The notes under the pieces were generated by a model. It was not told the DNA's origin, did no database searches, and worked only from the letters and a program-made list of their open reading frames with translations. A stretch of DNA of 64,000 nt from contig JAQSDM010000012.1 in assembly GCA_029945945.1 (NCBI GenBank), positions 448,112 through 512,111 on the forward strand. The letters are read 5' to 3'. The stretch is from Algoriphagus sp. Lineage in GTDB: Bacteria > Bacteroidota > Bacteroidia > Cytophagales > Cyclobacteriaceae. Positions 10,226 to 20,773 of the stretch are shown here, piece after piece. A program made the translations under genes and the position numbers. How positions within the stretch are numbered: the stretch's first letter is position 1; every line of letters begins with the position of its first letter.

Positions 10226-11224
10226 TTACTTATCAAAAATGTGAAAGATTCTCTTCTTTACGTTTTCTGGAGTTCGCATACCAAAATAGATAGCTTTCAG
10301 ACTTTCAAGTGGATAATGTCGGATTCTTTCTTCTGGTTCTTGGGGATTTCCAAAGTTTATATGAATCGCTCTCCATTCCTTTTCATATTTCCACGGTGCA
10401 GTTTTGGTAGAGAAAACCCATTCTAATTGATGAGCAAAATGATGTGTCCAAGGTTTTGAAAGACCTATCAAATCACAATCGTGTTCATTTTCAAAAACTT
10501 GTGAAAACTCGAAAAAATTTATAAACGGCTGTTCGCTCTCATAATTAACTTTTTTAATTCTGTCCCAATACACGTGGGTTTCTAAATCCCATTTGGATAG
10601 TCTTTCTTTGTATTTTTTGCAATCTAATTTCCTTCGAGCTTTCCCGATGTAAGGGAAAAGACCTGAATTTTCTAACGCAAACTCTAAACAGATTCCTGAA
10701 TGCTTGCTGGAATAGTGCGACCACATTAAAAAATCATCATTGCTTTCTGAAAAGCAAGTAGCATAACTATTTTCAAGAAATTTTGACGATATACGTTTAA
10801 GTACGCTTTTGAAATTCTCTGAATCAAATTGGAATTCTAGATTGTGTTTCTTTGATGCGGAATCAATAATGCTTTTAATATCAATATCCCAAACTCTTTC
10901 TTTTTCATCTTTTAGCTGGTTTATATATTCAAAAACCGTTTGCTGAAATTCTGCAACCTTTGTTCTGTTGTCATTGAATGCAAGTAGGTTTTTGTCGTTC
11001 TTCCTTTTTTTGTCAGTTAAGGCATCATTGAGCGATAGGGTTGACTTAAAAAGAAAATAAATCAGATATTCTACTTGCTCGGATTTCTCACAACTAAATT
11101 CAATCCGAGCCGACAAATCAAGCGGGTCATTCAATTCGAAGTAGGAAGCGAAGTACAACTCTTGATAGTAAAGTTCCTTAAAAAGAAATTCTGAAAGTGG
11201 GCGATATTTATAGAGAATCTTCAA
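10226..11224 (-). CDS. DUF2971 domain-containing protein; possibly truncated by a nonsense codon (frame stays open to 10145)
   Basis: N-terminus LYKYRPLSEFLFKELYYQELYFASYFELNDPLD; C-terminal half KEWRAIHINFG...LKAIYFGMRTP. Confidence 0.8.
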   Translation of the reverse strand: MKILYKYRPLSEFLFKELYYQELYFASYFELNDPLDLSARIEFSCEKSEQVEYLIYFLFKSTLSLNDALTDKKRKNDKNLLAFNDNRTKVAEFQQTVFEYINQLKDEKERVWDIDIKSIIDSASKKHNLEFQFDSENFKSVLKRISSKFLENSYATCFSESNDDFLMWSHYSSKHSGICLEFALENSGLFPYIGKARRKLDCKKYKERLSKWDLETHVYWDRIKKVNYESEQPFINFFEFSQVFENEHDCDLIGLSKPWTHHFAHQLEWVFSTKTAPWKYEKEWRAIHINFGNPQEPEERIRHYPLESLKAIYFGMRTPENVKKRIFHIFDK

Positions 11225-11365: not shown

Positions 11366-12571
11366 TTATTCAAATTTAAAGGTTTCATCAAAGTATTCCT
11401 TTTTGACGATGATGTAAGATGAGGGTATGCCATAATCAAATGTGAATCTTTCAAAGATCAAATCCGGGTTGGGATTATGGATAATAATCTTTGGAAATGT
11501 TTTCCGTTTGAGAAATGCCGATTTAAACAATTGATCAGTTCTAATATCAGTTACAGGAAATGAATATCCTATTATATAGATTTCCTCTGCGTTTTCAATT
11601 TCTCTTTGTGCTTCAGCCCAAACTCGAGTAAATAATGTTCCAAATAAATCGTATTCTTTATTTTTTACCGGGGGAATTATTAATGGCATAGAATACAAAC
11701 CTTTATCATTCGATTTTCCTTCAGGCATCAAAGGGTTTTTAATTCTGCTTTTTACTATTGTATAACCTTCAGGAGCAGGTTTACCTATCAAGGGAAGATT
11801 TGGTGGATAATAGCCATATGAGAACTCTTCATATCCAGACATGTATCTACCAGCATAGGTTGCATATGGTTTAGTTGCTCGTTCGAAGACATAGAAGTCT
11901 TCTACATTAGTTTCCTGGCTTAATTCAAATTTGCCTTCTTTGCTAGGTATAATATGACTTGTAATCCAATTACTAGAACCGTGAAGTTTTAACAACTTCG
12001 GGAAATTTCGTTCAATAGATTGATCATCATTATAAATCCAATCATCCCTGAAAACGGCAGAAGGCTGTACAAAATATCCATTTCCACTATTCCAATCAGT
12101 TTCTTTCATTAAAGCTCTGTCCATCAAAGTATCCCAATTAAAAGTTATGATTGAGTCTCTCGTAGAAAGTTGTTTAGCTAAATTTTTATGAGTTAAAGAT
12201 TCATCACCATTCTGAATTTCATTTATTACACTTACAAAAAGAAATATCAATTCATTATAAGCCTTTAATTGTTGAATACCATCTGGGTGTCTAAAAATAT
12301 TTCCACGATGTAAAGCCTTGTACAATTTTTTTTGAATTTCAGAATGCAGTAATTCGATATCTTCAGAAAAATTCAAAAATTGGAGTGCATCAACTTTATC
12401 TCTATCAGATATATAGTTAATTAAATGTCCAATTAATACCCAAGGATTTTCTGAAATTTCAAGTTTTCTAAAGGTTTCAAAAAAGTCTAATGCAACAGGC
12501 ATTTTCACACCTGTTTTAGATTTGTTATAGCTTTTAGAAGCCCCTGCTCCAAGTATTATTGCTCTTTTCAT
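11366..12571 (-). CDS. SIR2-like domain protein (predicted NAD-binding defence-type effector)
   Basis: MKRAIILGAGASKSYNKS; SIITFNWDTLMDRAL; LLKLHGSSNW; YIIGYSFPVTD - SIR2-fold motifs. Confidence 0.82.
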   Translation of the reverse strand: MKRAIILGAGASKSYNKSKTGVKMPVALDFFETFRKLEISENPWVLIGHLINYISDRDKVDALQFLNFSEDIELLHSEIQKKLYKALHRGNIFRHPDGIQQLKAYNELIFLFVSVINEIQNGDESLTHKNLAKQLSTRDSIITFNWDTLMDRALMKETDWNSGNGYFVQPSAVFRDDWIYNDDQSIERNFPKLLKLHGSSNWITSHIIPSKEGKFELSQETNVEDFYVFERATKPYATYAGRYMSGYEEFSYGYYPPNLPLIGKPAPEGYTIVKSRIKNPLMPEGKSNDKGLYSMPLIIPPVKNKEYDLFGTLFTRVWAEAQREIENAEEIYIIGYSFPVTDIRTDQLFKSAFLKRKTFPKIIIHNPNPDLIFERFTFDYGIPSSYIIVKKEYFDETFKFE

Positions 12572-12658: not shown

Positions 12659-14569
12659 TTAATTTTCTAATAAGTTCATTTGACCGTTAAGCTCTTCTTC
12701 CAGTCTTACATTTTCGAGAAATGGTGAATTTTTTACTTTGTCATAAAGATTTAGTAATCGGCTGTTAGCCCGTTTTACTACAGTATCGTAAAGTAAAGGA
12801 ATTATTTTAGTTCCCCCTTGATGCGTTTCCTGAGCTTCAAGTGGATCAATTTCCGAACCGAGAACGAAACATGTTATTTTATTTTCAGGAGTGACATATC
12901 CTTTTTTTGTTAACTCCTTCACATATCCCCATGCTTGACTTTTTTGCTCTGAACTAAGGGGAACACCTGGCTTTTTTAATTCCACTATCGTAAGTCTATC
13001 TACGCCAATTTCACCGCCTTCATCATCATATTTAGGATATGAGTAGAGACCTACTGTACTGTCACTTAAAATTGCGAAATCTGGTCTTTTTCTTGAGCCT
13101 TTCTCTATTCCTCCGTATAAATTTTGTATTACTGATGTCATTCCTTGATTTGAGGTGTATTCGATAGTTTCGTATTCGGGTCCAAAAATCCATAGGCCCT
13201 TTTTGAATAAAGGTTGCAACTCCTGAACCTCATCAGTATCCTTTGAAAGTACTTTGATTTTTAACTGCTCCAATAATTTTAGCCTAAATTGAAGTTCATC
13301 CAAAACTATTTTTGCAAGATCCACATTCCATTCTTCTAGAATCTCATTGAGATTATCCAGTTGATTTGGATCAAGTTCATATAGAGCGTGTATAAGGCTG
13401 AATTGAGATTGTGATTCCTCCAAATTGGCTAGGATTGTCCCAAGCTTTGCAAGTTCTGTTTCATTAATTGATGGGCATTCCTCCTGCACTTGAGTTATAA
13501 ACGAATTCCATTTTGTTTGACCAATTAGCCCAATCCTTTTAAGAGTTTGATTATTTTGTGATTTGATGTCATAAAAAGTTTCTTTACGTTTTTCTTTAGA
13601 AATATCCAAAACAAAATCTTTAACCTTGTTGAGTACAACCTCATTTACTGATTGAAATTCGTCACTATTTGATTTAAATCCAGACCAATCCGGATGTATG
13701 TTTTTTTCGGAATTTAAAATATCTGCCAAAACGATAAAGATAAATCTTTTGGCTTCTATACGTCTTCCGTCAATAAGATGATCCATACCAGTTCCTTTCC
13801 ACGAACACTCACCAACTAACCTCCCATTCACATGCCATGCAATGCCATGTTGATGGGTAGTTTTGTCAGTTGATAAAGTATCGATTGCAATTAGTTTAAC
13901 TTCTCCAAAACCTTCCACGGTTAGAATAAACTCCTTAATATTTTTCTCTGGTATATCTAGAAAGGTTATTTTTTCTCCATCAATTGCAACTTCGAAATTT
14001 GGGTCAGTAAGGAATCTCATACCAATCTCTCTTTTGATTAAATTAGCCGAGATTATGGGAATTTTGGCATTATCTGCATAAACCATTGTTCCATGTCCAG
14101 TTACTCCTTCTTTACTATCTATTTTCTGGAAGAATATTTCGCCTTCATTCCCTTTAAATACTTTTACAGTAACTTCATTATTCTTTTTCCATGTTTTAAC
14201 AAAGAAAGACGGACCAAAACAAAACCCTGCAAATCGTCCTTTGCCGTTTTTTCCAAAAGCAAGTCGTTTTGAAATAAATGAGTTTTCTCTAGGTATTTCA
14301 GCATAAATACCCTGATCTCTTTGCCTATTATATGCCAATTTTCTAAAACGTTTATCAAATTCGGATTCAGACATCCCATGTCCATTATCTCTGATGAAGA
14401 AAGAATTGTCTGATTCGTTAGGCCATTTGATTTCCACTTTAGAGGCACCTGCATCCCAAGAATTTGCAATTAGCTCTATTATAGCAATCTTTGGTTCACT
14501 CACTATTCCAGTACCAGTAAATGATTCGAGGAATCTCTCGTCAAATAATGCTGTTTGTTTTCCTTCCAT
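12659..14569 (-). CDS. GHKL (HATPase_c_3/MORC-like) ATPase with C-terminal PD-(D/E)XK / Shedu(DUF4263)-like nuclease region
   Basis: N-terminal IAIIELIANSWDAGASKVEI...FIRDNGHGMSESEFDKRFRKLAYNRQ...GKNGKGRFAGFCFG (Bergerat-fold motifs); C-terminal RKRPDFAIL...RLTIVELKKPGVPLSSEQKSQAWGYV. Confidence 0.8.
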   Translation of the reverse strand: MEGKQTALFDERFLESFTGTGIVSEPKIAIIELIANSWDAGASKVEIKWPNESDNSFFIRDNGHGMSESEFDKRFRKLAYNRQRDQGIYAEIPRENSFISKRLAFGKNGKGRFAGFCFGPSFFVKTWKKNNEVTVKVFKGNEGEIFFQKIDSKEGVTGHGTMVYADNAKIPIISANLIKREIGMRFLTDPNFEVAIDGEKITFLDIPEKNIKEFILTVEGFGEVKLIAIDTLSTDKTTHQHGIAWHVNGRLVGECSWKGTGMDHLIDGRRIEAKRFIFIVLADILNSEKNIHPDWSGFKSNSDEFQSVNEVVLNKVKDFVLDISKEKRKETFYDIKSQNNQTLKRIGLIGQTKWNSFITQVQEECPSINETELAKLGTILANLEESQSQFSLIHALYELDPNQLDNLNEILEEWNVDLAKIVLDELQFRLKLLEQLKIKVLSKDTDEVQELQPLFKKGLWIFGPEYETIEYTSNQGMTSVIQNLYGGIEKGSRKRPDFAILSDSTVGLYSYPKYDDEGGEIGVDRLTIVELKKPGVPLSSEQKSQAWGYVKELTKKGYVTPENKITCFVLGSEIDPLEAQETHQGGTKIIPLLYDTVVKRANSRLLNLYDKVKNSPFLENVRLEEELNGQMNLLEN

Positions 14570-14654: not shown

Positions 14655-15617
14655 TTAGGGATCTGCTGTGACCAAATTAAGGATTTCGTCGATCCCATCA
14701 AGTGGACTTTGAATATTTTTATTTGATATCGATAGCACATGCGTATATATTTCAGTGGTCTTACTACTTTCATGACCAAGGAGAGCTTGCACATAACGCA
14801 AATTTGTCCCCTTTTGAAGTAGATGAGTTGCAAAACTGTGACGCAAAGTGTGTACAGTCGCCCAAGGGTTTGAATTGCTATTCTTTATTGCTCTTCGAAA
14901 AACGGCTTGAATGCTTGTCGCTGAATACTGACCTCCTTCCTGCCCTTCAAATAGCCAATAACTGGGCTTATAAGCTTTGTAATACTCTCTAAGCATTACT
15001 AGCAGAATTGGTGAAAGCACAGTTTTCCTATCTTTTTTTCCTTTTCCTCCCTTGATGAAAATGTAACCATCATCAGAATGAATATCTCGTTTTCTTAGGT
15101 TTAGATATTCCGACGAAAGGTTGATAGCTTCACTTATTCTTAATCCAGCACTGTAAATAAGCATCAATACAGCTCGGTGCTTTATATTCTCCACACTGCA
15201 AAGGATTGCTTTGATCTCTTCCTGACTGAGTACATTGGGCAGCGTTAGGCTTTTCTTAGGTCGTTGGATATCATAAATAGTCCGTTCTCTACCCAGCACG
15301 TGTTCATAATACGCCTTAATCGCGTTTATCAACGTATTTTGCGCACTTTCTGAAATTTTATATTTGGTGATCTGATGATAGACAAAGGCTTCTATTTCTT
15401 CCTTTGTCACATCCTTAATATTTCGACTTTCAAAAAAAGATAAAAATTGAGTTAATGATGATCAATAGTTCTTTACTGTAGATGGGCTATAGGCTTTAAG
15501 AATTAATTTCTGCTCCAAATCTGCCAGTGCCTGGACGGATTGCGTATTCATGATTCTAACTGGTACTGCAACTTTTCTTTCAGATGGCCTGACTTCAGAT
15601 TTACCTTTATATAACAT
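14655..15617 (-). pseudogene. XerC/D-type tyrosine recombinase interrupted by an in-frame TGA (15462..15464)
   Basis: Catalytic domain intact (GLRISEAI; HTLRHSFATHLL; LLGHESSKTTEIYTHV). The same frame extends upstream as MLYKGKSEVRPSERKVAVPVRIMNTQSVQALADLEQKLILKAYSPSTVKNY*SSLTQFLSFFESRNIKDVTKEE. Confidence 0.8.
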
Positions 15618-19272: not shown

Positions 19273-20529
19273 TTATCGCTGAATGAAGGAAAGGATTCTC
19301 TTATAGGTTTCCACGGTTTTTCTTTCGGTATAATACTTCTTAAGAACCGAGCCGGGCGAATGCCCAAATATCATTCTAATATCATTATCATCCATCCCAA
19401 GTCGATCTGTCCATGTTCCGAAAGTCTTTCTTCCTACTTTATTGGACAGCACATCCGGGAATTTAATTTTCTCTGCAAGGACTTTCAAGTTCTGGTTAAA
19501 CTTCTGCTCCGAAATAGCAACGCCTGCAGGAAACAGATAATCTCCACCTTCATGAAAGTACTTTTTAACTATCCTTTTTGCGGTACCATTAAGAGGGATC
19601 CAAAACTCCTCTCCATTCTTCTTTCTTTCCCCTTGAAGCACCATGTGTTCTGGATTTTCTTTTAACAAGTTCCAATCAAATCCATTTTCTGAACGAATTG
19701 CTATCAAATCATTATAATACAGAGCGGTATTGCACAGCAAAAGAAAAAGATCCCTGGTAATTTCAAGTCTTCTCTCTTCAGGAGAAAATTTCATTTCAGA
19801 CAGCAATTCATACTGCTTATCATTAACGTAGATGATTTTATCAGGCCTTTTGGTTGACTCGACATCCAGCCTTTCAAATATTCGCTTTTTAAAGAGAATC
19901 CCATACTGGTCACAATACTCTCGGTAGATCACCTTCAGGCGATCCACATATTTTGCAACTGTGGTATCGGAATTTATGTCTGTTGATTCGCTCCGCAAGA
20001 AATCAATAAATCCCAAAACAAAAGCCTCATCCAAATCAGCCATGACAGCCTGGCTTTTATAGCTATCGACCAAATTCTTCAAGGTCACATATACCTTTCT
20101 CGTTCCTTCAGCTTTCTTTTTGGTTGCTCCAAATTTGAGAGAGTAATCGATATAGGATGAGATTTTATCACTTGCCCCAGGAGCACTTGTGCCATTGACA
20201 CCTTTTATTCTTTTTCCTTGGTGTTTTACCAGATATATATTCTTCAGTTTATCAGCAGTCAGAACCTCACTCCGCCTATAAAAATCCTGGATGATTTCTT
20301 TGAGATGATGAATTTCCCTTGCAATTACCCGATTGTGAAAATCAGCATATAGGAATTGACTATTGACCCATTTTAATGGTTTTCCCGACCAAGCATTTTT
20401 TGGAATCTTTTCAAGGTTGAGATTAATGTAGTGCCTTCCATTTCGATTAATGCACAAATAGATCGCTTCACCGGCGGGCGACTTTTTACTTTTCGGATTC
20501 AAAACCGCGGAAATTTTGAAATCTATCAT
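19273..20529 (-). CDS. Tyrosine-type site-specific integrase (phage/ICE type with SAM-like N-terminus)
   Basis: 418 aa; C-terminal catalytic region KVGRKTFGTWTDRLGMDDNDIRMIFGHSPGSVLKKYYT; adjacent to tRNA. Confidence 0.9.
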   Translation of the reverse strand: MIDFKISAVLNPKSKKSPAGEAIYLCINRNGRHYINLNLEKIPKNAWSGKPLKWVNSQFLYADFHNRVIAREIHHLKEIIQDFYRRSEVLTADKLKNIYLVKHQGKRIKGVNGTSAPGASDKISSYIDYSLKFGATKKKAEGTRKVYVTLKNLVDSYKSQAVMADLDEAFVLGFIDFLRSESTDINSDTTVAKYVDRLKVIYREYCDQYGILFKKRIFERLDVESTKRPDKIIYVNDKQYELLSEMKFSPEERRLEITRDLFLLLCNTALYYNDLIAIRSENGFDWNLLKENPEHMVLQGERKKNGEEFWIPLNGTAKRIVKKYFHEGGDYLFPAGVAISEQKFNQNLKVLAEKIKFPDVLSNKVGRKTFGTWTDRLGMDDNDIRMIFGHSPGSVLKKYYTERKTVETYKRILSFIQR

Positions 20530-20693: not shown

Positions 20694-20700
20694 CTAAAAG

Positions 20701-20773
<73 letters not shown>

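Follow-up and report, generated by a model that had tools for sequence, protein, structure and literature searches.

Several proteins that join a GHKL ATPase to a nuclease in a single chain have already been described. The paraMORC3 proteins (Iyer, Abhiman & Aravind 2008) combine a GHKL domain, an S5 domain and a C-terminal RE-fold domain with an E-D-ExK motif. They occur sporadically in proteobacteria and Bacteroidetes, and a subset is standalone, without conserved neighbours (PMC2292703). In 2025 VcSduA, the type I-D Shedu of Vibrio cholerae WASA and a GHKL-DUF4263 protein, was shown to restrict phage, protecting against Drexlerviridae and vibriophage X29 (PMC12137116). It acts as a single gene. 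Protection is lost in both the E27A and the K557A mutant, and the survival of infected cultures points to direct restriction (PMC12137116). Most classical Shedu SduA proteins (DUF4263, PF14082) differ in lacking the GHKL ATPase and carry other N-terminal sensors. In EcSduA, the best-studied Shedu, DNA ends are held by an N-terminal clamp and the nick is made at a constant distance (review PMC12904381). Finally, the BbrUII/HgiDII enzymes (NF050001) also unite a GHKL ATPase and a Shedu-like nuclease in one chain.

Here we describe a gene of this kind in a 64,000-nucleotide stretch of Algoriphagus sp. DNA (the window, to which all positions refer unless a locus is named). The initial annotation of this DNA called the domain pairing unusual. 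That view has to be given up, since the architecture was known from paraMORC3 (PMC2292703) and VcSduA (PMC12137116), and the pairing is not new.

Domain architecture and conserved residues

The gene is an intact ORF (ORF list), and positions 12659-13260 encode its 3' third, the last ~200 aa of the protein. Its features are:

12659..14569 (-): GHKL ATPase-PD-(D/E)XK nuclease gene, 636 aa, solitary, paraMORC3-like and Shedu type I-D-like
14165..14494 (-): GHKL (Bergerat) ATPase domain, residues 26-135, HATPase_c_3 E=1.1e-18
14450..14476 (-): N box, residues 32-40 (E32-L-I-A-N36-S-W-D39-A), E32, N36 and D39 invariant
14375..14389 (-): DxGxG motif, residues 61-65 (DNGHG), invariant
14234..14254 (-): G-rich ATP-lid motif, residues 106-112 (GKNGKGR), G106, G109 and G111 invariant
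13670..14047 (-): S5/transducer region, about residues 175-300, from the AF2 model, with Foldseek matches to MutL, TRAP1 and MORC2
13247..13663 (-): helical middle region, residues 303-441, from AF2 secondary structure of partly low confidence
12731..13243 (-): C-terminal Shedu-like PD-(D/E)XK nuclease domain, residues 443-613, from Shedu profile matches
13229..13231 (-): E447, putative catalytic Glu in helix 1, invariant
13079..13081 (-): D497, metal-binding Asp of (P)D, invariant
12974..12982 (-): E530-L-K532, ExK catalytic motif, invariant within the protein's own clade
12935..12937 (-): Q545, post-ExK helix, invariant in the 19-protein alignment, the equivalent Q being invariant in the Shedu set

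The HATPase_c_3 match scored 68 bits against a Pfam cut-off of 25, whilst the C-terminus was without any match in a Pfam scan of the full-length protein. NCBIfam returned partial matches to BbrUII/HgiDII, MutL and MzaB, all confined to the ATPase part. Conservation was assessed by aligning 19 relatives that share 23-58% identity with the 636-aa protein. The motif order E447 ... (R)PD497F ... (V)E530-L-K532-K-P ... Q545 is present in the C-terminal sequence, and its key residues are invariant across these relatives. Invariant positions comprise E32, N36, D39, D61-x-G63-x-G65 and G106/G109/G111 in the GHKL domain and E447, W460, D497, E530, K532, Q545 and Y549 in the nuclease. In a wider set of 31 proteins E447, D497, E530, K532, Q545 and Y549 align in almost all members, the exceptions being a few distant methyltransferase-linked proteins. 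Catalytic residues are kept in both modules, and the pairing of nuclease and GHKL ATPase in one chain is confirmed, far beyond chance.

Between close homologue pairs synonymous change was saturated or nearly so, leaving dN/dS mostly undefined, and dN was 0.08-0.27 in ATPase, middle region and nuclease alike. This low dN against saturated synonymous change indicates that the ATPase and the nuclease are both maintained under constraint. The GHKL motifs, the S5/transducer and the C-terminal E-D-ExK domain that characterise paraMORC3 are all found in the protein. Its architecture is the same and nothing decisive differs, making it a new sequence of the paraMORC3 kind, carried on a mobile element.

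Homology of the nuclease to Shedu

The C-terminal domain shares the order Q...WIFG...PDF...ExKxP...Q with classical SduA. When cut out and compared with Pfam SduA_C it scored 16.7 bits (E=0.0086), below the cut-off of 27, and because of this subthreshold score a PF14082 search of the window's own genome gave no match. A Shedu reference nuclease set was built from Bacteroidota genomes. The first profile-profile comparison of the nuclease with this set gave 89.7%, and hhalign with a cleaner alignment pair gave 95.1% to the Shedu profile (score 56.2, 123 columns). Controls with a reversed Shedu profile, a methyltransferase family and the GHKL domain gave 0.5-1.4%, and 30 column-shuffled Shedu profiles scored at most 19.1.

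Three Bacteroidota proteins of 584-587 aa (L130, L131 and L077) carry both HATPase_c_3 and SduA_C above the curated cut-offs. They align with the 636-aa protein over ~600 residues at 22% identity (BLAST E about 4e-25 to 1e-27) and, judged by sequence, bridge its family to recognised Shedu nucleases. The same kind of evidence indicates that the nuclease is homologous to the DUF4263-type Shedu core, though it falls below the Pfam SduA_C cut-off. The initial annotation's proposal of a Shedu-like PD-(D/E)XK nuclease fused to a GHKL ATPase is upheld by the profile comparison, the bridging proteins and, at a subthreshold level, SduA_C.

Predicted structure

AlphaFold2 modelled the full-length protein with a mean pLDDT of 76. 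Foldseek matched this model to TRAP1/Hsp90, MORC2/3 and MutL at about 1e-12 to 1e-11, and the alignments with MutL, MORC and TRAP1 extend over about 350-420 columns, corresponding to the GHKL and S5/transducer regions. At the C-terminus the model places a helix at 447-457, a short strand at ~500, a strand at 525-531 (ExK), a helix at 540-555 and a strand at 564-571. This predicted order is consistent with a PD-(D/E)XK core, residues 467-522 being uncertain. The nuclease fold foreseen from the sequence is thus neither contradicted nor strongly borne out: residues 467-471 and 503-522 are poorly modelled in the full-length prediction, and the isolated domain was modelled at low confidence (pLDDT 60). 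The best PDB matches of the isolated domain were mostly restriction-like nucleases (McrC, BspD6I subunits, NucS) and weak (E 0.05-0.4). No solved Shedu structure was among the 50 Foldseek matches listed for it, and a PDB sequence search with the C-terminal profile found nothing relevant. Given the low-confidence domain model and weak PDB matches, assignment of the nuclease fold relies mainly on the sequence profiles.

Relatives and methyltransferase linkage

A scan with one genome per species yielded 29 loci. These include seven Algoriphagus copies and other Bacteroidota at about 46-62% identity. Relatives at 31-51% come from Methylobacter, an alphaproteobacterium, Planctomycetota, Acidobacteriota, Chloroflexota and Methanobrevibacter, and those on plasmids are at 40-45%. 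Distribution is sporadic, with only 5 of 396 genomes of the phylum positive, the window's own included. In 369 genomes of the class to which the Methylobacter relative belongs, a search recovered nothing beyond the Methylobacter genome itself, two relatives linked to a methyltransferase and a single partial match. Relatives were found on plasmids and in the vicinity of recombinases, HEPN, RT and AbiEii-type genes, their immediate neighbours including HEPN, reverse transcriptase and M78-peptidase/HTH genes. No neighbour family recurs beside the homologues beyond recombinases and close pairs. Directly after the Pedobacter homologue lies an RVT_1 reverse transcriptase gene (L010, 10082-11656, +), possibly another defence gene.

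The family divides by its relation to C5 methyltransferases. One fully supported clade, of the BbrUII/HgiDII kind, has a C5 methyltransferase adjacent in 10 of 11 members, from the P2-like phage PhiR44_1, Pantoea, Acinetobacter, Campylobacter, Burkholderia, Rhizobium, Deinococcus, Halobaculum and two Gammaproteobacteria; a Rubrobacter protein is the member with none nearby. Four members were scanned with NF050001 (cut-off 550), three scoring 650-753 bits and a divergent one 304. Typical members are BbrUII/HgiDII restriction enzymes according to this NCBIfam sequence model. The phage PhiR44_1 locus (L051, 2953-6001) encodes a BbrUII-type GHKL restriction enzyme, annotated ParaMORC3, together with a Dcm methylase.

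By contrast, the 636-aa protein is solitary and falls in a separate clade with 100% support, in which a C5 methyltransferase is near 1 of about 21 members, as judged on flanks that differ in length between loci. That member, L016, is cut by an assembly gap and has the methyltransferase upstream. Neither the window's first 24 kb nor the surroundings of about 20 other members contained a C5 methyltransferase. Genome G004, which carries an identical gene, had none detectable genome-wide in a search confined to the C5 type, N6/N4 enzymes lying outside it. In view of the separate clade, the single C5-linked member and the G004 result, the protein fits the description of a solitary nuclease better than that of one component of a Type II R-M system. 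The bridging proteins L130, L131 and L077 form a third group of GHKL proteins apart from both clades, and an Agrobacterium plasmid protein (L110) joined them in a second tree.

Neighbouring genes and the carrier element

Downstream (3') of the gene lie a SIR2-like gene (11366-12571, -; SIR2_2 3.5e-6) and then a DUF2971 gene (10226-11224, -), whose product is the PADLOC candidate PDC-S31. Both are probable further defence genes. Upstream are genes for a Xer/integron-integrase-like recombinase, a primase-like protein, an AAA_25 ATPase and a tyrosine integrase located by tRNA-Met. The recombinase gene (14655-15410, -) is directly upstream, matches TIGR02249 at 175 bits (below its cut-off of 265) and could mobilise the defence cassette. 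The end of the carrying element is marked by:

19273..20529 (-): tyrosine integrase of the element, Phage_integrase 5e-9, adjoining tRNA-Met
20700..20773 (-): tRNA-Met, the element's right end, with identity ~90% or more before it and about 77-78% beyond

A TraG homologue lies 13-15 kb to the left of the window start, and the gene rides a tRNA-Met-integrated conjugative element. Compared with genome G028, a 39-kb block from about -18.4 kb to tRNA-Met is 99.3% identical; about -18400 to 18505 (~37 kb) is practically identical, and divergence is concentrated in the last ~2.3 kb. G028 also holds a second GHKL-nuclease of the same clade, 32% identical, on another contig (L049, 1435-3348, -). A comparison of seven Algoriphagus genomes from separate projects (L001-L007), covering 8 kb either side of the gene, showed that 4662 to about 16000 (at least 11 kb) is practically identical in all of them. 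Their chromosomes beside the tRNA, where compared, are only about 77% alike. Near-identity of the block between diverged chromosomes indicates very recent transfer of the conjugative element between species. The HTH/integrase end is divergent or replaced among Algoriphagus copies. The A. algorifonticola copy of the gene (L007, 8001-9898) is identical except for the deletion of 10 bp near codons 241-244, which splits the ORF. The 22-base tRNA-end repeat had no second copy in the window's own genome, and the left end of the element was not found.

Proposed function and alternative explanations

We consider it probable that the 636-aa protein acts alone, as a one-gene factor that restricts phage, and belongs to the paraMORC3, or GHKL-Shedu (type I-D-like), kind. 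An anti-phage role is suggested by analogy with VcSduA and its E27A and K557A mutants (PMC12137116). The two proteins are alike in their GHKL N-terminus and DUF4263-like PD-(D/E)XK C-terminus, and E27 in the VcSduA ATPase and K557 in its nuclease are the counterparts in kind of E32 and K532. They are nevertheless likely to represent different subfamilies. By residue numbers, the E-to-K spacing is 530 in VcSduA (27 to 557) and 500 here (32 to 532). VcSduA in this respect resembles the BbrUII/HgiDII-like clade more than the clade of the 636-aa protein, and may thus be only a distant relative. A further difference from VcSduA is that the 636-aa protein misses the curated SduA_C cut-off.

The shared architecture also raises the alternative that the protein is a BbrUII/HgiDII-like Type II restriction endonuclease which has lost its partner methyltransferase or is no longer linked to it. 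NF050001 matches residues 30-223 at 9.8e-22, the sister clade is methyltransferase-paired and L016 has its upstream enzyme. Yet the NF050001 score is 77 bits, far under the curated cut-off of 550, and covers the ATPase region only; this, with the lack of an adjoining C5 methyltransferase in the other members of the clade and of a C5 enzyme in G004, makes such an origin unlikely. A three-gene system with the SIR2-like and DUF2971 genes would account for their common strand, gaps of 87 and 141 nt and identity in seven Algoriphagus genomes. Because that identity spans the whole block, it is uninformative about the trio in particular, and relatives of neither neighbour were found beside any other homologue, a check for a conserved operon giving none; we hold this reading to be very unlikely.

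It is highly improbable that the protein is a MutL-related nuclease for DNA repair or mismatch processing instead of a defence protein. The MutL profile TIGR00585 does match the ATPase (4.3e-8), and MutL N-terminal structures match the AF2 model, but the profile score is 32 bits against a cut-off of 180, in the ATPase only. Profile matches end within residues 8-80, the MutL C-terminal endonuclease is unmatched and a Shedu-like domain stands in its place. The sporadic distribution, plasmid or mobile-element location and lack of a conserved repair partner also argue against a repair function.

The simplest mechanism for a restriction factor of the GHKL-Shedu kind would be control of the nuclease by an ATP-gated clamp. 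ATP binding would dimerise the GHKL heads, as in MutL, MORC and Hsp90, and dimerisation would close a clamp, formed by the transducer and the helical middle region, on DNA. This closure, or else ATP turnover, may then release or position the C-terminal nuclease, which would cut incoming DNA. With no linked cognate methylase, self is more probably protected by recognition of a feature of the DNA (its ends, its topology or an intermediate of replication) than by site methylation. Such sensing of DNA structure is suggested by EcSduA, a Shedu with a different N-terminus. More tentatively, the solitary clade may be a distinct GHKL-Shedu subtype, diverged from the sequence-specific BbrUII/HgiDII enzymes, that tells self from non-self without a methylase via ATP-gated sensing of DNA structure.

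For this single locus, the architecture and probable role are already explained. The interest is in how cleanly the protein separates from the restriction enzymes that are paired with a methylase, and in its carrier, an element that shows a gene of the GHKL-Shedu kind spreading recently across species. The same two modules seem to give sequence-specific Type II enzymes with a methylase and solitary defence nucleases without one. Comparing the clades would make it possible to test how an ATP-driven clamp of the MORC/MutL type governs a nuclease and by what means self is protected.
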